Below, piece after piece: positions 39,610 to 56,591 of a stretch of 64,000 nucleotides of DNA. The translations under genes were made by a program, and so were the position numbers. The notes under the pieces are model-generated. The model had not been told where the DNA came from. It did not search any database and saw nothing but the letters and a program-made list of their open reading frames with translations. Source of the stretch: a virus; IMG/VR virus record IMGVR_UViG_3300037247_001044, positions 1-64,000 of that record; one strand, 5' to 3'. How positions within the stretch are numbered: position 1 is the first letter of the stretch; every line of letters begins with the position of its first letter.

Positions 39610-40821
39610 CTATAGGCGGTAGCCCACAAAGACGTTTGAAGCCCCGCGAACAAATCGGAACGTGCCGGAACTGATGACGTCGGCCCCATCGTCGTCAATT
39701 TCCTCCGAACCAACAAACGTGACGCCTGACGCGACAGCCATCGTGATGATGTCTCCAGCCCCACCGAGGTTGATTACTGTCAAGTCGAAGAAATCGCCGG
39801 TAGCCAACGTGCCGCCAAGCGCAGTTTCGATTTGCGTACCCGTTCGCATGGTATACGTGGCAGTTGACGTTGGCGTACCGACAAGAATGCCGCCAAGTAT
39901 CTGGGCGTCTGTCAACGAGGCAGTATCTGCTGCCGTTTCGGGCGTGCCCTGTTTGCCAAGCACCTTGGCGCGAAGGTGGATATTGCCAGCAACGCCAGAA
40001 CCAGACGTCCCGGTAGTTACGACAACGGCACCGCCATCGCCCGACCCGGCAGCGGCACCACCGGCAATCCCGACCTCGCCACCGTCACCAGTGCCTTTGC
40101 CGGCACCGCCCGTCGCTGTAACAGGACCGCCAGCGCCATTGGTTGTATTCGCATTAGCTCCACCCGTAACGGTTACGGCTCCACCCGTGCCGCCAACACC
40201 TGCTATGGTTGCGCCACCGGCAATGGTAATAGCACCGCCGCTTGAGGTCGTTCCGGGGACTCCACCAATCAGAGAGGCGGCGCCGCCCGCGTTGCCAGCA
40301 GTTGACGACGTGCCACCCGTGACAGACACGAGCCCACCTTGTGCGGCGGCGATTCCAAGTATGGCTAGCGTGGAATCGCTGCCCGTAATATCGTCGGCGG
40401 TCATGCTTCCGCCAACGCTGGCGATATTCAGACTCGTGCCGTCGATATCCACGCGGACATACGTATCCGTGGCTGCGGTGTCGGTGGTTCCGTTTGGCTG
40501 GAGCGGGACGGCAGTACCGATCAAGTTATTGCCACCCGCCGTAGCAGTCGCGGCCCCACTGAGAGCGTCGCCGGTGACTGGGGTGCCGTTCTCGTCCCAA
40601 TACACACGATCTCCCGCCTGGATGATCTCAGCAGCCTGCGGAATGTCCCATGCACCATCAGAGACGACGGTGCCTAGCGGGTTCAGGCTGAAGTCGATCG
40701 CATGAGACACGATCAGCGGGCGGGTGCCGACCACGACAACCTCCCCCGCGATCTTGTCGCTACTGGCCAAGTAGGCCAACGCCAACCCCGGTTTTACAAA
40801 AAGCACAGGTGTCTGAGCCAT
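39610..40821 (-). CDS. DUF2190-like decoration protein with Gly-rich repeat insert
   Basis: 403 residues. The N-terminal 'AIDFSLNPLGTVVSDGAWDIPQAAEIIQAGDRVYWDENG' region is the DUF2190 fold of head decoration/fibre proteins. Residues about 175-290 are a Gly/Thr/Val-rich low-complexity insert (units such as GGAVTVTGGA and GGEVGIAGGA), which would form a solenoid or exposed fibre. The C-terminus returns to the fold (ITMAVASGVTF). The ORF follows the capsid gene, as expected. Confidence 0.7.
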   Translation of the reverse strand: MAQTPVLFVKPGLALAYLASSDKIAGEVVVVGTRPLIVSHAIDFSLNPLGTVVSDGAWDIPQAAEIIQAGDRVYWDENGTPVTGDALSGAATATAGGNNLIGTAVPLQPNGTTDTAATDTYVRVDIDGTSLNIASVGGSMTADDITGSDSTLAILGIAAAQGGLVSVTGGTSSTAGNAGGAASLIGGVPGTTSSGGAITIAGGATIAGVGGTGGAVTVTGGANANTTNGAGGPVTATGGAGKGTGDGGEVGIAGGAAAGSGDGGAVVVTTGTSGSGVAGNIHLRAKVLGKQGTPETAADTASLTDAQILGGILVGTPTSTATYTMRTGTQIETALGGTLATGDFFDLTVINLGGAGDIITMAVASGVTFVGSEEIDDDGADVISSGTFRFVRGASNVFVGYRL

Positions 40822-43479: not shown

Positions 43480-44991
43480 TCATACGCGAGCACTCCTGTT
43501 TCCGTTGCGGCCAGCAGTCGCCAGCCGATTCCTGCCTTGTGTTGGCGGTGTTGGTAGTGGAGGCGGTTCGGCGGGCGCAGATGCGCCGCTACCAAAGTGA
43601 GCCTCGAATAAAGCGGCCCTCATCTCGTCGGGTGTGATGCCATAGTCCTCAGCCATGCGGGGCAATTCGTCCTCAAAATCCAGACCGCCTGCCGCGAAGA
43701 CTCGCCGGAGAACAGCAACGCCTGTCGACAGATTGGTCTTGTTGGCATTGGCGTGTTTGACCTCGTCGATGACCGGCTTCTCGGGCCAGTCCCAACCGTG
43801 ATTCGGTGCCGGATCGGCCGGCACACGCCAACCAAACCGGAGAACAGCCTCGGCGAACCACACCTCGAAGAGCGGATCGAGCACGTCCTCTTCAATATCC
43901 TGTTGCTCAACATCGACCGAAACAAAATAGGTCAAATGATCGAGCTTGCCGCCGGAGAACGAATAGCCGCTGGAGTCGGCCCTTGCGATGTTGTTCGGCA
44001 TGTTGAGCGGCCGCGCCTGCTCGCCTGCTTGCTCGCGAATGAATTCTGTGTAGTTTGAAGACGGTTGTTCCGGCTTCGGCTGCCATCCGTCGTAGCCAGC
44101 CGGGAAGGCCGTCATCATCCCTTTCTCCATCGGATACGTGGAGAAGGGAAGAGCGATGTTGGGTTCGATGCTGGGATCAGCCTGAGTTTTCAGAAAGATC
44201 GAAAAGTTAGCGATATTCTCGGCACCTACGATAACTGCCTCGCGGTACCGCCTGCCATTCGCGTAGCAGTTAAGCGACGGGGCGACCTCAGAAACGCCGC
44301 GATGCTGACCGGCTCGGTCTTCGCGGAAAAGATGAAGCATGAATCGGGCGGGCACCCGTTCCACTTCTTGCCCCAGCCCGCTCCACTGACTGCCCGGATG
44401 CTGCTTGAGCACGTCGTAGAAAAGCACGTTGCCAAATTCGTCAAACTCGATGCCGTCAATCTTGTTCGGCTCATTGGTCCCAAGGTACGGCGTCGTCACC
44501 TGTTCGCATTCGATCGGTTTCAAGCCGAGCTTGACGCGGTGCCGCATCCTGGGATTCTGCGTAATGATGATGAACGGGTCGCCGTCTGAGACCTTTGCTT
44601 TGATGGTGGTGCGAAGCTTCTTTGGCAGTTTGACTTCCTTTGCCCAGCTCTTCCACGCGGCCTCAACCATCGAATTGAATCCGGGGCTTCCGGTTTGCAT
44701 TCGCAACTTGGGGCCCCGGCCAACCACATAATTTGCCTGGGTGAGCTGGATGCCCTTGCCTAGACCGTTGTTGGCGAATTCGTATCGGGCCCGCTGTGAG
44801 ATCCGTTGGCGGACGGTCTTGGAGTTGGCGGAGTCGGCGTCAAGAGCATCAGCGGCAAGCCAGTGCCGGGTGTTCATGCCGGCAAGATCCGCGGCATCGT
44901 AGCTGCCACGGATCGGTCGGGGCGTGTCCATGTCGACCGTCACCGGCTGGTGGCGAGAGAACGCGCGGCGGATTGCGGCAATCATGCCCAT
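43480..44991 (-). CDS. Lambda-type portal protein
   Basis: 503 residues. The 'MNTRHWLAADALDADSANSKTVRQRISQRARYEFANNGLGKG' N-terminus, 'YVVGRGPKL', 'SDGDPFIII', 'IEFDEFGNVLFYDV' and 'LEHLF.AIRAGQHRGVSEVAP'-type clip region match the lambda family (Phage_portal_2). It forms the dodecameric ring through which DNA is packaged. Its 3' end is close to a small head gene. Confidence 0.9.
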   Translation of the reverse strand: MGMIAAIRRAFSRHQPVTVDMDTPRPIRGSYDAADLAGMNTRHWLAADALDADSANSKTVRQRISQRARYEFANNGLGKGIQLTQANYVVGRGPKLRMQTGSPGFNSMVEAAWKSWAKEVKLPKKLRTTIKAKVSDGDPFIIITQNPRMRHRVKLGLKPIECEQVTTPYLGTNEPNKIDGIEFDEFGNVLFYDVLKQHPGSQWSGLGQEVERVPARFMLHLFREDRAGQHRGVSEVAPSLNCYANGRRYREAVIVGAENIANFSIFLKTQADPSIEPNIALPFSTYPMEKGMMTAFPAGYDGWQPKPEQPSSNYTEFIREQAGEQARPLNMPNNIARADSSGYSFSGGKLDHLTYFVSVDVEQQDIEEDVLDPLFEVWFAEAVLRFGWRVPADPAPNHGWDWPEKPVIDEVKHANANKTNLSTGVAVLRRVFAAGGLDFEDELPRMAEDYGITPDEMRAALFEAHFGSGASAPAEPPPLPTPPTQGRNRLATAGRNGNRSARV

Positions 44992-45194: not shown

Positions 45195-45321
45195 GAATGC
45201 ATGGTAACGCGGCCAAGAGACGCATCAAGGGAAGAGTGGGCAAGTTGCTATATATGGGAGTTTTGGCCAGATACGGCCAGATTTCTGGGGCAGTTGCCGG
45301 ATGATAGAGGCCAGCGCATGA

Positions 45322-45354
45322 GTAAGCCCGGGCACTTGCGGCACCCGGGCTTAC
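45322..45354. terminator. Perfect 11-bp hairpin between array and portal
   Basis: GTAAGCCCGGG (45322-45332) and CCCGGGCTTAC (45344-45354) are perfect inverted repeats around an 11-nt loop. There is no T run on either side, so it is a candidate terminator, processing site or stability element at the 3' end of the array transcript. Confidence 0.45.
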
Positions 45355-45364
45355 CTTGAAAGTA

Positions 45365-45902
45365 GGGCACTGTAGCAATCGGTCTCAGTGCGAAGTTCGC
45401 CTTGGGCTATGCGGCAATGCCGTTGTCGGTTTCACGTAAGCCGTCGCCTTGTCTAGGGCAACTCTTGACTCGGTTTCATCTTGCCTGTCGCCGTGGGTTG
45501 GGGCAACTCATTCTTCGGTTTCAAACTTATCCTCGCCTTGGATTGGGGCGGTGGAGCTTTCGGTTTCATTTGACCCGTCGCCTTGGGATTGGGCTCGGGG
45601 GTAATCGGTTTCAATTTTCCGCTCGCCTTGGGTTAAGGGGCATCGCGTCAATCGGTTTCACGTTCTGGCTCGCCTTGGGCTGGGGCACCGCTGACTTCGG
45701 TTTCACAAGAGCAGTCGCCTTGGGTTGAGGCAATGCTCGGTTCGGTTTCACGAAGAGTATCGCCTTGGATCGGGACACGGGTGCTCTCGGTTTCACATGT
45801 CGACTCGCCTTGGATTTTGGCATTATTGCAGTCGGTTTCACGGGGTCGGTCGCCTTGGGTTGGGGGCAAGCGGCGACTCGGTTTCACTTGGCCTTTCGCC
45901 AT
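45365..45902 (-). repeat. TIGR-like array, block 1 (12 edge repeats)
   Basis: Edge repeats (plus-strand TCGGTTTCA, minus TGAAACCGA) at 45379, 45426, 45470, 45515, 45560, 45605, 45652, 45697, 45742, 45787, 45832 and 45878. They alternate with loop repeats near TGCCCCAACCCAAGGCGA. Every gap between an edge and a loop is exactly 9 nt and differs in sequence (for example CTTATCC-type, CGTAAGCCG, ACTCTTGAC on the plus strand). Period 44-47 bp, with length change only inside the loop repeat. The left end begins with a partial loop (GGGCA). The right end (a truncated TCGCCAT) almost touches the Tas-like stop at 45909. I read this as a TIGR array giving dual-spacer guide RNAs. Confidence 0.85.
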
Positions 45903-45908
45903 ATCTCA

Positions 45909-46985
45909 TCAACCACCGGTCCACGGTTCCGGTTCAATCCCATCGACTTGAAACACCCATTCCGTCCACAACTCACGCAAGAGCCTTTTCCCCATCAACA
46001 GCATCCCGTGGAGGTGAGGCCGCATCACCATCACACCACGGCCTGAGCATTTTTTGCACCCGTCTCCGCTCTTGGCCGTGCCGGTGCCTTTGCACGTTGT
46101 ACAGTCCGGCGTCCACTCCGGGTCTTTCCGGGCAATCGCTTCGGCTTTCTTCGTAGCATACCGTCGGGCATACGGGCCAGCGTAAATTGCCCCATGCGTC
46201 TCAGTTGCCTTTCGGGCCCCGTTGCCTTTCAGGAGCGATTCGGAAATCACGAACATCACCGACCGGCGCCGTGGACAGTAACCCAGTTCCTCCCACTCGG
46301 CCGCAGACAATCCGCCGTTGTGCTTCTTCCGGCTTCGCCACGTCGAGGGCATGAACGTCTTGCCCTTCGACTCAAACGGGGCGCAGCCCATCCGGCGCCA
46401 CAGCTTCCCGGGGTTGTCGTAGTTCGATAGGTCGCCCACTTCGCCGATGATGATGGCCAGCGATAGCCAGCCGAATCCACGCTGATCGGTTAGTGCCATC
46501 CACTTGGCTACGGGGAGTTGTTTGGACAGCTTTCCCATTTCCCGTTCGTAGGCTTTTTCCGTGGCGTGAAAGCCTTCGATCGAGACGGAGCAGGCTTGAA
46601 TCAGGGGGGCCAGGGCATCTCTGGGCCCGGTTTCAATGGCGCTCTCGCCCTGGACCTCCCTGATAAGTTTCTTCGCATCGCCAAACCACCTGGCACGCTC
46701 GTCTTCCTCCATGCCGGCGTGATACCCGCTCGCCGTGGCCACCGTGGCAGTCAAACGGTTGTCGATCATGATCCGCGACTTTTGCGTGGTGACCCGCTGG
46801 CGTTGGAGTTCACGGATATCGGCAACAAGAGAAGGCACGGGGGTAGTCGGTTTCACCGGATCATTCGCCTTCTTTTTCGGCACTTCCGTTTTCGGTTTCA
46901 GACAGGGGATCGCCTTGTCTTTTGGCACGGCATCCCTCGGTTTCAGTGGGGGTTTCGCCATGGGTGTTTCAGTTACGGTTGCCAT
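45909..46985 (-). CDS. tasA-like: Tas-like protein (IS110 C-terminal/Nop-like core), TasA type
   Basis: 358 residues from the ATG at 46985, chosen for GAAAGG 6 bases upstream; an upstream in-frame ATG at 47063 would run through array repeats. Residues 11-55 are three 15-residue repeats (KPxxxVPKxKA type) encoded by three array units. Residues 55-165 are helical. 'DQRGFGWLSLAIIIGEVGDL' (167-186) and 'NPGKLWRRMGCAP' (191-203) match the Transposase_20 helix-hairpin-helix of IS110 and resemble Nop-type RNP proteins. C295-x2-C298-x11-C310-x2-C313 forms a zinc ribbon. No RuvC acidic set or HNH motif is seen, which fits a nuclease-free TasA. Expected role: bind array RNAs and use their two 9-nt guides on DNA. 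Confidence 0.75.
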   Translation of the reverse strand: MATVTETPMAKPPLKPRDAVPKDKAIPCLKPKTEVPKKKANDPVKPTTPVPSLVADIRELQRQRVTTQKSRIMIDNRLTATVATASGYHAGMEEDERARWFGDAKKLIREVQGESAIETGPRDALAPLIQACSVSIEGFHATEKAYEREMGKLSKQLPVAKWMALTDQRGFGWLSLAIIIGEVGDLSNYDNPGKLWRRMGCAPFESKGKTFMPSTWRSRKKHNGGLSAAEWEELGYCPRRRSVMFVISESLLKGNGARKATETHGAIYAGPYARRYATKKAEAIARKDPEWTPDCTTCKGTGTAKSGDGCKKCSGRGVMVMRPHLHGMLLMGKRLLRELWTEWVFQVDGIEPEPWTGG

Positions 46986-47500
46986 GATGGGCCTTTCGTG
47001 GGGTTGAGGGGGGACAGTAGGTCTCTCGGTTTCACGGGGGGGATCGCCCTGGGTTGGGGGCACAACGGTTTTCGGTTTCAGCGTATTGATCGCCTTGTGT
47101 TAGGGCAGGCTGGGGTTCGGTTTCACCCACGAAATCGCCTTGGTTGGGGGCACCGGAACTTTCGGTTTCGTTCTTGTTGTCGCCTTGAGCAGGGGCATTA
47201 CTATGGTCGGTTTCATTGCTCCAATCGCCATGGTTGAAGGCAATGTCTCATTCGGTTTCAAGTCCGTCCTCGCCTTGGATTGGGGCATCAGCTCGATCGG
47301 TTTCACGGTGGCTCTCGCCTTGGGTCGGGCACGTGTCTAATCGGTTTCACGTCCGTCCTCGCCTTGGGATGGGGCATTGACCGGGTCGGTTTCACTATTC
47401 ATCTCGCCTTTGGTTAGGGCACGGGGGTTTTCGGTTTCATTTCCTTGGTCGCCTTGGATTGGGGCAAAGGCTATCTCGGTTTCACCCACTCAATCGCCCA
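46847..47500 (-). repeat. TIGR-like array, block 2 (14 edge repeats)
   Basis: Edge repeats at 46847, 46892, 46937, 47026, 47072, 47117, 47162, 47207, 47252, 47297, 47341, 47386, 47431 and 47476 (9 nt each; the one at 47162 ends CG rather than CA). The first three lie inside the Tas-like reading frame. Between 46946 and 47025 the array is degenerate and carries the gene's start signals. The loop repeats keep GCC/GGC ends even when the middle changes (for example TCGCCTTCTTTTTCGGCA at 46865). The right edge meets the stop of the 165-residue gene at 47501. Confidence 0.85.
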
Positions 47501-47998
47501 CTATTTCTTCACCTTCTGAAACACCTTCGTCAACTTCGCCAGCGTAAACTTCTGCCGAACGGTCGCCTCGCCCTTTACCGTCTTCGCAAGCTCACGACAT
47601 AGTCGCGTGTTGAACTCGTGACCGGACGCCCGCTCGGATTCCGCGTCGGCCGTGGCCACCAGTTCGTCGCCCGTGAGCATCCCGAGAGTTTTGCCCGCGA
47701 TCAAGTAGGCCATCACGCCTTGAGCAATTCGGCCAGACGCTTCCCCGGCCGTAACCTTTGCCGGTCCACCGTAATCGCCATGGGCGGTTCGCATCTCTAC
47801 GTTGATATGATGCCGGGTGTCGTGGATCAGCTTTGCGATTGCCCGGCGGATCAGCTCGTCTTTCAATGTATCGAACCACTGGACCTTGTTTGCCTTCTTC
47901 AGTACGGCCTCGGTCGCGTCCTCGATACTGTCGGGGTGCTTGTCAACGGCCGCGTCTACTAGCTTTTGCAAACGTTCCATTGCTTTCGGTGATTCCAT
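47501..47998 (-). CDS. Unknown array-associated protein
   Basis: 165 residues from the ATG at 47998. The AAGGAG Shine-Dalgarno is part of a loop repeat of the array, which has changed from ...CCCAAGGCGA to ...CCCAAGGAGA. Mostly helical: a Lys/Asp-rich N-terminus, 'LIRRAIAKLIHDTRHHINVEMR', then 'AGEASGRIAQGVMAYLIAGKTLGML' and a basic C-terminal helix (VRQKFTLAKLTKVFQKVKK). No family or catalytic motif recognised. Because it sits inside the array, it may be a partner of the Tas-like protein or a phage gene that was captured. Confidence 0.65.
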   Translation of the reverse strand: MESPKAMERLQKLVDAAVDKHPDSIEDATEAVLKKANKVQWFDTLKDELIRRAIAKLIHDTRHHINVEMRTAHGDYGGPAKVTAGEASGRIAQGVMAYLIAGKTLGMLTGDELVATADAESERASGHEFNTRLCRELAKTVKGEATVRQKFTLAKLTKVFQKVKK

Positions 47999-48002
47999 TG
48001 AG

Positions 48003-48468
48003 TTCTCCTTGGGTCAGGGGGCACTTCCATTTTCGGTTTCACCCCCGAAATCGCCTTGGGTTAGGGCACCTAGTCATTCGGTTTCACACTGGGCTTCGCC
48101 TTGGATAGGGGCAACCTGACAATCGGTTTCACGCTTGCGTTCGCCTTGGGTTGGGGCACCGGGCTTGTCGGTTTCATATTCGCACTCGCCTAGAGTTAAG
48201 GCAATGTACCACTCGGTTTCACTCTCTTGCTCGCCTTTGGGTTGGGGCAACGCATCACTCGGTTTCATGATGAGCATCGCCTTGAGTGGGTGGCACTTTC
48301 TTTTTCGGTTTCAGCTCGGTGATCGCCTTGGGCTAGGGCACACCCTACCTCGGTTTCAGCGGGTATTTCGCCTTGATTTATGCGGCAGTGGGACACTCGG
48401 TTTCACAGCTATATTCGCCGCGCAAGCCTTCCCTTCGGTTTCCACGAAAGGCCGCCCATAAAAGGGCA
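48003..48468 (-). repeat. TIGR-like array, block 3 (10 edge repeats)
   Basis: Edge repeats at 48033, 48078, 48123, 48168, 48213, 48259, 48305, 48350, 48397 and 48435 (the last is TCGGTTTCC and degenerate). The left end is the loop repeat that serves as Shine-Dalgarno for the gene at 47998. The right end is a decayed loop (48453-48468) that still has the GCCC/GGGC stem. This is the 5' end of the array in transcription direction. The degenerate copies are at this leader end. Confidence 0.85.
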
Positions 48469-49329: not shown

Positions 49330-49632
49330 CCTTTTGTTATTGCCCCGCCATTTCCGCAAGACTCAGTCACGGCTTCACCACTCGGTCTACGTATCTTGCG
49401 ATTCCGGAAACCGCTCATACTTCGTGCAGTCAGTAAAGAGCAACACACACCCTTTGCCTTTGCCCATCCACTTATAGCCACATCTGTAACAGGGGTGGCG
49501 TGCATCTACACATATCTCCGACCAGAGGCAAAGCCGTATCTTGTTCCGTAGTTCATGTTTTCCTGTTGACGGGCCGTCCATGTATTTAGTTTCACGCTTT
49601 TCGTTATCGCTTGGCCATTTCCGCAAGACTCA
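49330..49632. repeat. Terminase 3'-end duplication (2 copies)
   Basis: About 36 bases at 49597-49632, including the terminase end (SLAEM.. and stop), recur at 49330-49365 with few changes (18 identical bases, CCATTTCCGCAAGACTCA, at 49348-49365 and 49615-49632). The extra copy encodes SLAEMAGQ and a stop that belongs to no gene. It is one of several gene-end duplications in this window. Confidence 0.75.
49387..49581 (-). CDS. Small zinc-knuckle protein
   Basis: 64 residues from the ATG at 49581. A 'CLWSEICVDARHPCYRCGYKWMG' stretch suggests a small zinc site; rest is polar. It lies between terminase and its duplicated 3' end. The ribosome binding site is weak. Uncertain but protein-like. Confidence 0.4.
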   Translation of the reverse strand: MDGPSTGKHELRNKIRLCLWSEICVDARHPCYRCGYKWMGKGKGCVLLFTDCTKYERFPESQDT

Positions 49633-51694
49633 TGGGCTTCTTGGTTGCTTTTTCTGCCGATGGAATTGACGATAGCCGCGACAACGACGCGCCAACACGC
49701 CCTAACGCCAAGGCATCCAAGTAGTGGTTTGGACCATTCGGTGGCAGGAATTTCGCCTTCGCCGGGTCCCACTGTTCGCTGATGACATGAGCCCCAAGTT
49801 CCCGCTCTTCCTCCAGCGAACTTCGCAACTGGCGGCCATCGGGACCAGTCCGCGGAGCGTGTAGCCCGAGGCTGCCGGGCGTACCGAAGTCGGCCTTGAA
49901 CGCTTCCTGTACGCGGGTCTTGTAAACGTCAGGGTTGACGTCGCACAGCGGCGACCGCGTCCTGCGGTCGATGTGACACTCGTCGAACAGACGGATGCCG
50001 ATGTGCGGCAACGGCCGACGGTATTTTCCGAACCCTTTGCACGGCAAGCAGCGTCCAAAACCAACCTCGGAAGCAAACACCGTCACCGGCTGTACCGACC
50101 AGCCTTCGTTTTTCCATCCACTATCAAGCAGCGTCCAATCGGGAAACCAGGCCGATGCTTCCACATCCAGGTCTTCCCGCCATGGCTTGTGGGTCTGAAT
50201 CCATTGCCACCAATCGCGGAGCCCTTCCAGGACAGCATTCTCGCAAGCCTCGGGGCGTTGGCCCGCCGTTGCGAATCGCCAGAAATGGTACTCGACAATC
50301 GAACCGACGCAGTGTTCGTCCCACGCGACCGCCACCCAATGCGCCCCAAGCTTTTTGATATCGACGCCGACTGTCAACCGGACCGTCTCCGGTGGCACGA
50401 CTCGGTAATCAAAGCCACTCCGGGAATCGCGAATCTGTTCTGACGTCAGATCGAGCAAGCCGAGTTCGTCAGGCGGGTCGTTGTCGAACTCCGTCGCCGT
50501 GTTGGCTGGGCCAATCCTCGCAACCCAGCCGTAATAATGCTCCAACGCCGACACCTCGACCGTTCCACCCTCCGGCCGGATTCGGTGGTCGTAACGGTGC
50601 TGATTCGCGACCTCGCCGCCTTCGTCCATTTCGTCGCGACGAGCCAGGTAGAACTCGTGTGCTATTCGCGGTGTCGGGGCCTCGCGCACATCGCCTTGCT
50701 CGGCCACCCACCCCTGCTTGCACAAGTTGACGAATTCAGCCCACGCCGTCTGGTTGGTTGGCGGCTTCAACAGGAACCGCATCCGCCGTCCACGGAAAGA
50801 TGGGTACTTGTCCCGATCGGTCAGTTGATACGCAACAGAACACCGGCTCGGGCAAGTACAGAGCACAAGCCGCGATACGGGATTGTGCTGCGAGCCAAGA
50901 GCCGCGATGCCGCGATTGATCTTCCGTAGTAGTTTGGCAGCTTGAACAGGATTATGAATCGTCTCTTCCGTGTCGGGATCGTCAATAATCACCGCTCTCG
51001 GTCGACGGTTTTTGATCCGCAGTCCCCGCAGAGCAGAATCAAGACCTTGTGCGATCACGATAGCACCAGCCGAGGGCGAACCCGGTACGTTTGGAAATAC
51101 AAGCCGATCGCCCGTCCAATGGAAACTGCTCGGCGCCAACTCGTATCGCTCGCCGTTGCCGAACCGCTCGCCCTCGACCACTTGGGTCTTCGCCCGCTGG
51201 ACGGTGCCCTCCAGGGCCCGAACCGGATCGCAGACCTCCGGGTAATACTGGAAGATTTCGTCATTCTCCCCGATGGCCATCCTGATCGTGTCTAGGATGT
51301 CGGCCGCGTTCTTCGCCGTCGCCCCGAGGATGACCCATAGGTCTTGCCCGCCACCTTGCAGGATCGCCTTGAGCGTCAGGGCAATTGCTAGGGACGTCTT
51401 TCCTTCGCCCCTCGATGCCGCCGTCGCCTGATCGCCGCCCTCCGACAACACTCCAGAAAAGTCGGCCACCATCTGCCGCTGCTGAGGCTCAAGGGGATAG
51501 TACGTGTCTGGACTGAATGCCGGCCAGTAGGACTCGATCCAGAGTTCATCATCGGCCTCGCGTCGGAGTCGTTCGGCCAGCTCTTCCGGTGTCAGCGAGC
51601 GGACGGTAACCAATCGGCTCTCAAGTCGCTGTGTGCGTTTCCGAAGTGCGTCGTAGTCGCGTTCTGACATGGCGCCAGTCGGCTCCTTGGCCAT
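49604..51694 (-). CDS. terL: Terminase large subunit
   Basis: 696 residues. Walker A 'AASRGEGKTS' (about residue 95) and Walker B 'AVIIDDPD' mark the packaging ATPase. The C-terminal nuclease half carries 'LTVGVDIKK' (first acidic residue of the RNase H-like fold) and 'HYLDALALG' (last Asp). It cuts concatemeric DNA and pumps it through the portal. The ATG at 51694 is chosen; an ATG at 51670 with AAGGAG 12 bases upstream is an alternative. No small subunit was found; that may be one of the small upstream genes. Confidence 0.9.
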   Translation of the reverse strand: MAKEPTGAMSERDYDALRKRTQRLESRLVTVRSLTPEELAERLRREADDELWIESYWPAFSPDTYYPLEPQQRQMVADFSGVLSEGGDQATAASRGEGKTSLAIALTLKAILQGGGQDLWVILGATAKNAADILDTIRMAIGENDEIFQYYPEVCDPVRALEGTVQRAKTQVVEGERFGNGERYELAPSSFHWTGDRLVFPNVPGSPSAGAIVIAQGLDSALRGLRIKNRRPRAVIIDDPDTEETIHNPVQAAKLLRKINRGIAALGSQHNPVSRLVLCTCPSRCSVAYQLTDRDKYPSFRGRRMRFLLKPPTNQTAWAEFVNLCKQGWVAEQGDVREAPTPRIAHEFYLARRDEMDEGGEVANQHRYDHRIRPEGGTVEVSALEHYYGWVARIGPANTATEFDNDPPDELGLLDLTSEQIRDSRSGFDYRVVPPETVRLTVGVDIKKLGAHWVAVAWDEHCVGSIVEYHFWRFATAGQRPEACENAVLEGLRDWWQWIQTHKPWREDLDVEASAWFPDWTLLDSGWKNEGWSVQPVTVFASEVGFGRCLPCKGFGKYRRPLPHIGIRLFDECHIDRRTRSPLCDVNPDVYKTRVQEAFKADFGTPGSLGLHAPRTGPDGRQLRSSLEEERELGAHVISEQWDPAKAKFLPPNGPNHYLDALALGRVGASLSRLSSIPSAEKATKKPMSLAEMAKR

Positions 51695-51821
51695 TCGTGG
51701 CTCTTGTGATCGGCGCAACAAAAAACAGCACGCCCAATGGTTCCAGCACTGGACTGCTGTTCTTGTTGCGCCTCCGTGTCCACTCGCTGGCCGGCAAGTG
51801 GTCGGTGGCCCCGATAAATTG

Positions 51822-55958: not shown

Positions 55959-56591
55959 TTAGTCGAGAAATCCCACCAATTCCTGCGTACGGCTGGTCTG
56001 TTGAAGTTTGCGAATCGCCTTGGCTTCAATCTGGCGAATCCGCTCTCGTCCGACCTTGAATATATCTGCGACTTCTTTCAGCGTGCATGACTGCCCATCA
56101 CCGAGGCCAAATCGCATTTTGACAATCTCCCGCTCCCGGTATGATAGCGTTTTTACCACTGCCAGCAGTCTCTCTCTCAGTTCCCCTTGATTGGCCGCAA
56201 GCTCTGGTGACGGTAACGTCATCCGCTCTTCGTGCCGCTGCTGGTGGTGTTCTAATGCAAGATAGTCGACTGTGACTCGGGTAACCTTCTCTCGGGGAAT
56301 ATCTGCAAGTTTGTCCCGAACGAACCCTGGGAAAATTTCCTCAATTGGTTTTCCGGAAAGCTCGACGAGCTTCAAGTACGCGCGTTCTTGTTTCGCTGTG
56401 TGCCCTCGGTAACACTGCCGCGGCATGGTTCGTAGGTTGAGCCAACCGCCAACCGTCGAGTCGGTGACCCCTAACTCCGCTGCCAGAGCCTTGACGCTTC
56501 CAAACTGCTGGACAAGGTCCCAGAGAATGCCGTGCTTGGCTTTGGATTGCACCACAATCTCGAAGTCGTTAGGTACTGTCTTTTCTTCCAC
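55959..56591 (-). CDS. Sigma-70 region 4-like factor with extra HTH
   Basis: 210 residues. The C-terminal 'LSYREREIVKMRFGLGDGQ' and 'TLKEVADIFKVGRERIRQIEAKAIRKL' is sigma-70 region 4, which binds the -35. An N-terminal HTH-like segment (GSVKALAAELGVTDSTVGGW) lies where regions 2-3 would be, so this is not a normal sigma factor. It could redirect host polymerase to late promoters or act as an anti-/co-sigma. It lies between tail and terminase-side genes, on the late strand. Confidence 0.7.
   Translation of the reverse strand: MEEKTVPNDFEIVVQSKAKHGILWDLVQQFGSVKALAAELGVTDSTVGGWLNLRTMPRQCYRGHTAKQERAYLKLVELSGKPIEEIFPGFVRDKLADIPREKVTRVTVDYLALEHHQQRHEERMTLPSPELAANQGELRERLLAVVKTLSYREREIVKMRFGLGDGQSCTLKEVADIFKVGRERIRQIEAKAIRKLQQTSRTQELVGFLD

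Follow-up and report, generated by a model that had tools for sequence, protein, structure and literature searches.

In the TIGR-Tas systems described by Faure et al. (2025; PMC12045711), processing of the array transcript depends on the Tas protein, the guide is held as a figure eight on a Tas dimer, and the two spacers of the guide pair with the two strands of the DNA. The published guide RNAs (tigRNAs) are 36 nt long and extend from mid-edge to mid-edge, as they are cut inside the edge repeat. The published model has TasA bending DNA, and an aid to integrases was proposed; tasParB is the only operon partner described, an intermediate between dual-repeat and stem-loop arrays was suggested, and the origin, growth and upkeep of TIGR arrays as well as the role of the nuclease-less TasA were named as questions (PMC12045711). 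Here, a 64,000-nt stretch (the window) of the 70.8-kb IMG/VR virus record IMGVR_UViG_3300037247_001044, which carries terminase, portal and other structural genes, was analyzed, and a TIGR array with a tasA gene and a partner gene was found between the terminase (49604–51721) and the portal (43480–44991), all on the minus strand. This TIGR-TasA locus is probably accessory cargo of a tailed phage and would act by binding and blocking DNA.

The array comprises 36 complete units of the pattern GGCGA-N9-TGAAACCGA-N9-TGCC, each 36 nt in length, which extend from 48419 to 45366. Over the 18 fixed positions, 29 units carry no mismatch and seven carry one; every site on the remaining strand outside the array units has at least five, and the expectation from 100 dinucleotide shuffles was zero units. 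GGCGA is intact in all 36 units and TGAAACCGA in 33 of them, and the closing arms GGC/GCC are preserved throughout, twice as G-U. All intact spacers are 9 nt long, and none of the 72 recurs within its class, all 36 first and all 36 second ones being different. These results bear out the tandem array with two variable 9-mers per unit that a preliminary description had read from the DNA. TGAAACCGA alternates with a repeat of ~18 nt, TGCC-N8..11-GGCGA, in which the inter-unit linkers measure 8–11 nt, mostly 9, so that the unit periods are 44–47 nt, and the box D/box C motifs UG...CGA are present in both elements. A protein-coding or structural DNA repeat devoid of guide function would suit the 45-nt period, equal to 15 codons, and the short open frames that cross parts of the array, but is hardly credible, as the unit spacing outside the gene is frame-free (44–47 nt here, and 23, 18 and 15 spacings in the three classes modulo 3 outside tas in the relatives described below), the spacers all differ, and a Tas gene is present. 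The array had no match in Rfam, and searches for exact matches to the 45-nt array among viral and genome contigs returned none.

By unit pattern and shuffle test, the complete units fall into block 1 with nine (48020–48419), block 2 with eleven (47013–47498) and block 3 with twelve (45366–45900); a degenerate first unit (48422–48457), which reads GGGCG-N9-GGAAACCGA-N9-TTGC in the unit alignment, precedes them. The three blocks around two genes noticed earlier are thus present, but that layout was incomplete, since four further units lie within tasA. The assignment of edge and loop had been inverted: judged from the arrays of relatives, TGAAACCGA is the loop repeat and the ~18-nt repeat is the edge. 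In relatives L005/L013, L010, L018 and L021, the loop is a constant 9-nt TGATACCCA or TGACACCCA, and the outer TGCC... and ...GGCCA arms pair within one unit and form the edge; the correspondence of these elements with those of the window identifies TGAAACCGA as loop and TGCC-linker-GGCGA as edge, the latter 17–20 nt long and made up of the closing arms GGC/GCC and the ~9-nt linker. In this register, both genes occupy linkers, complete units stand at both ends of every block, and neither gene interrupts a unit. TGAAACCGA as the edge, the register used at first, was dropped because it is contradicted both by the relatives and by the intact block ends. The earlier sum of 9 + 18 + 9 = 36 nt is a coincidence, for the cuts that release published tigRNAs fall within the edge (PMC12045711); by the same logic, the guide would be GGCGA+9+9+9+UGCC = 36 nt, and would reach at most 45 nt with the linker retained. 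In length, the unit would agree with 36-nt Tas-bound guides.

The gene between blocks 2 and 3 (45909–46985) encodes a 358-aa protein that was identified as a nuclease-less Tas (TasA) by hidden Markov model (HMM), profile and predicted fold, in keeping with the earlier proposal of a TIGR array in a phage, as a Nop-fold Tas protein is encoded inside the array. The NCBIfam model NF052498 (TIGR_Tas) matched it with E=5.2e-17, under the curated cut-off of 100 bits, and IS110 matched more weakly. A 23-member profile, every member of which is matched by the TIGR_Tas model, reached PDB 9mty (331 residues, as for TaTasR) with E=1.3e-15. The AlphaFold2 model (pLDDT, the per-residue confidence score, 78.5) predicts residues 1–49 to be disordered and a core that opens with coiled-coil helices; its best fold matches were TasH cryo-EM structures (E=1.8e-4), followed by IS621 and archaeal Nop5. 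No Pfam match to the N-terminal RuvC or HNH nuclease domain of TasR and TasH was found, which places the protein in the TasA type. A zinc-ribbon insertion, CxxCxGxG, is common to this TasA and those of L088, L091, L093 and L075. Translation probably starts at the ATG at 46985, judged from the probable ribosome-binding site GAAAGG nearby (46992–46997); a downstream GTG start, at 46840, is also possible.

The gene between blocks 1 and 2 (47501–47998) encodes a predicted all-helical protein of 165 aa, with a probable ribosome-binding site, AAGGAG (48005–48010), in an altered edge repeat (AAGGCGA to AAGGAGA). In most relatives, a helical open reading frame (ORF) of similar size lies directly upstream of tas. 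An HMM built from ten such upstream ORFs, with the window excluded, detected the partner with E=2e-12, the next, unrelated ORF of the window having E=0.5; hhalign gave E=2.7e-6 across 148 columns, and BLASTP against the L008 partner gave 26% over 155 aa. Scans with the partner family alone retrieved eight loci, all on tas-bearing contigs, and the partner recurs in loci retrieved purely through the 36-nt DNA unit. None of 20 family members matched Pfam (at E up to 0.01), PHROGs or NCBIfam, a profile of ten members found no relative in the PDB, and the partner as a single-sequence query found nothing, its relatives being reached only via the neighbours of tas. A structure of the partner modelled alone was poor (pLDDT 52.5) and was discarded. 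By sequence, the partner constitutes a helical family of its own, not described before, that may have remote kinship to tasParB.

The locus is not shared by sister phages. Five sister contigs with terminases 79–85% identical lack tas, partner and array, and in four of the five only short unrelated ORFs interrupt the conserved gene order at the locus, homology resuming at about window 48570 and 45264. The presence of sister phages without the locus at the same site identifies the locus as accessory cargo. The site between the terminase-side small genes and the portal (window 45264–45194; sisters L034–L037) is occupied by a different set of small ORFs in each of the sister phages and for this reason looks like an accessory-gene hot spot.

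A scan for the 36-nt unit yielded 37 viral contigs, at least ten of which hold several copies; the unit recurs in at least ten viral contigs other than the window, most with tas and many with the partner. Across 110 kb of 12 tas-bearing contigs, the tas strand carries 112 units and the opposite strand none. The hosts of relatives from named genomes are Alphaproteobacteria, and the closest relatives are metagenomic. Arrays with no tas in the stretch examined were observed in L068 (six units) and L087 (five units and a partner homologue), where tas may lie beyond or be missing, and L096 (1425–2538) holds ten linkerless unit-like matches whose spacings are all exact multiples of 36 nt, tas being absent from the 7.7 kb examined; these could be a coding repeat or a zero-linker array.

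Guide units were also found within tasA itself. Three complete units, spaced 45 + 45 nt, lie in the N-terminal coding part (46834–46959), whose encoded tail is the predicted disordered residues 1–49, and a solitary unit in the core (46614–46649), with one mismatch, a changed box C base, encodes GESAIETGPRDA in the surface loop that the model places between the coiled-coil helices. The core unit is within the conserved protein whatever start is used; that the N-terminal three are coding depends on ATG versus the downstream GTG. A decayed unit at a second tasA loop (codons ~256–270) was rejected, as its eight mismatches are common by chance. Of the 112 units in the 12 tas-bearing contigs, 28 are inside tas, at the N-terminal tail, the coiled-coil loop (five in L093, one in the window), the loop before GPYRxRY (three in L091, one in L082, two in L097) and the C-terminal tail, and these sites always coincide with gaps in unit-free relatives such as L101 and L083. 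All 16 neighbouring pairs of in-tas units, of which L093 contributes ten, have a spacing divisible by three, by which the reading frame is kept. In a second subfamily, which carries CCA boxes and whose units were counted with at least seven pairing arm positions, 22 of 25 loci have units within tas or the partner gene; codon phase 0 hardly occurs among these units, even where no stop would arise, and neighbouring units do not always share a phase. Two individual genes were also noted: the minus-strand ORF 7–1512 of L093, a 502-aa Tas with twelve guide units in its coding sequence, some of which adjoin head to tail across linkers of 0–3 nt, and L023 (4291–4655), where the N-terminal coding part of tas encloses a nearly complete stem-loop guide array.

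The in-gene units may be relics of array growth into tolerant parts of the gene, translated but no longer guides, an explanation to which we give not far short of an even chance. Their position in disordered tails and loops, the changed box C base of the solitary core unit and the mixed phases of neighbours in the CCA-box subfamily would fit it; the boxes of the three N-terminal units are all perfect even as their linkers deviate from the consensus, and in-gene units recur in the CCA-box subfamily (22 of 25 loci) and in the majority of loci of the other, which argues against mere remnants. Units in tasA that are read as codons would, if processed, also be guides, and processing would then cut the tasA message, which could keep TasA low while few free guides are available. 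That in-frame copying spreads guide units into their own effector gene, where functional guides set the TasA level by guide supply, is a tentative idea that we regard as rather doubtful; if true, the guide array would be self-invading and autoregulated, and would offer a clue to where TIGR spacers come from.

As for how the phage-borne TIGR-TasA locus would work, one transcript could carry the partner gene, tasA and all units, and a host RNase would cut in the linkers upon TasA binding to release guides of ~36 nt (36–45). Each guide is expected to carry UGAAACCGA in its centre with the two spacers around it. A TasA dimer holding one guide would open the DNA, spacer A pairing with one strand and spacer B adjacent on the other; lacking RuvC and HNH, TasA is expected to bind DNA and bend it without cleavage, and once bound may block transcription or replication of competing elements or host genes. 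Several points weigh against this reading. Targets were defined as A on one strand and B on the other with a gap of 0–2, in both registers and both orders; in the own genome, the sister phages and the Tas-bearing relatives, none had fewer than two mismatches, and the two-mismatch counts equal those of re-paired (shuffled) spacers, no search having been made database-wide, where chance 18-nt matches are expected several times. An apparent excess of three-mismatch targets in the sister phages was equal in the wrong orientation. At the array end, where TIGR arrays have a truncated edge and a rho-independent terminator, a truncated edge is followed directly after the last unit by a strong predicted hairpin with a 15-bp stem (45321–45355) but no T-run, and a search for a sigma-70-like promoter found none. 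Both the DNA-blocking mode and the feedback on tasA are steps that we infer. The guides might instead serve the phage itself, through regulation of its own genes, an aid to integration or biased inheritance, rather than attack on other elements; the genes and array share their strand with the flanking structural genes, and the DNA bending and integrase aid proposed for the published TasA (PMC12045711) would suit such a role. We consider it improbable, given the same absence of own-genome targets with fewer than two mismatches, the counts equal to shuffled pairs, and close sister phages that live without the locus.

Three other features of the window were observed: a 210-aa gene (55959–56591) with a helix-turn-helix and a C-terminus like sigma-70 region 4, perhaps a phage sigma factor; a perfect-looking 42-bp tandem repeat (2896–2996; 14 residues, 2.4 copies) in an ORF resembling a DNA adenine methyltransferase; and, in the structural gene region, a 403-aa protein (39610–40821) with a long Gly/Ala/Thr-rich repetitive stretch.

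What is new here is the guide units within tasA, the partner family, the two-repeat array nested in a mainly stem-loop clade, and the accessory nature of the locus; for the in-gene units and the partner family, no report was found in the literature searched, the supplement of the founding paper lying outside that search. The locus and its kin provide natural material for the questions that the founding paper raised about TIGR arrays and nuclease-less TasA, and bear on how such arrays are controlled: one clade shows arrays from the stem-loop to the compact two-repeat form, in-frame guide units recur at effector-gene positions missing in unit-free relatives, and the sister phages offer the empty site.

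Compared with known systems, the locus differs from CRISPR-Cas in its two 9-nt spacers per unit, versus single repeats of 25–36 nt with long spacers, and the locus genes scanned had no match to cas-like families. With the IS110/IS621 bridge-RNA recombinases and archaeal box C/D ribonucleoproteins, the next best fold matches, it shares the Nop fold, but it has a guide array in place of a bridge RNA and lacks both DEDD and RuvC domains; the match to IS110 is confined to the C-terminal RNA-binding half and leaves out the DEDD catalytic domain. As in TIGR loci with tasParB, a second gene stands beside tasA with array blocks between the two, whereas the partner family is set apart by the Pfam search, which found neither ParB nor any other match. 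Like the dual-repeat arrays of FpTasA, TaTasR, SpTasH and CGphi29 (PMC12045711), it has two repeats that alternate and share their boxes, short spacers of constant length and a 36-nt guide unit; the CGphi29 TasH array, our positive control, is built alike, from 10-nt repeats and 8-nt spacers. Unlike them, its edge measures 17–20 nt versus the 8–12 nt of the published dual-repeat clade, it has ~36 units versus the usual 5–15, and its Tas lies outside the SpTasH branch. In the tree, which includes few reference dual-repeat Tas and some long branches, the window TasA falls in a group (support 100/99) with the Tas of same-unit contigs, adjoining L007, within a larger group of stem-loop-array Tas that is split from SpTasH and two other Tas with support 100/98. 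Stem-loop TIGR-TasA (Faure et al., 2025; PMC12045711), whose array type also accompanies the nearest Tas in the tree, likewise has a Nop protein that lacks a nuclease, paired spacers of ~9 nt between box C and box D, closing arms and sub-blocks around genes; the arms of the window, however, are only a constant 3-bp GGC/GCC in place of long variable palindromes, and its linker is short and nearly constant, so that the array reads as two alternating repeats. Arm pairing amounts to 3.6–5.5 extra pairs in most of the nearest relatives versus ~1 in shuffles, and in the window to a mean of 0.5 versus 0.26, the window and L081 having nearly lost their arms and having short linkers. With arms nearly lost, linkers short and kin mostly of the stem-loop type, the two-repeat look is best read, on comparison of the arrays and Tas sequences, as a stem-loop array that became compacted, in line with the intermediate suggested in the founding paper.
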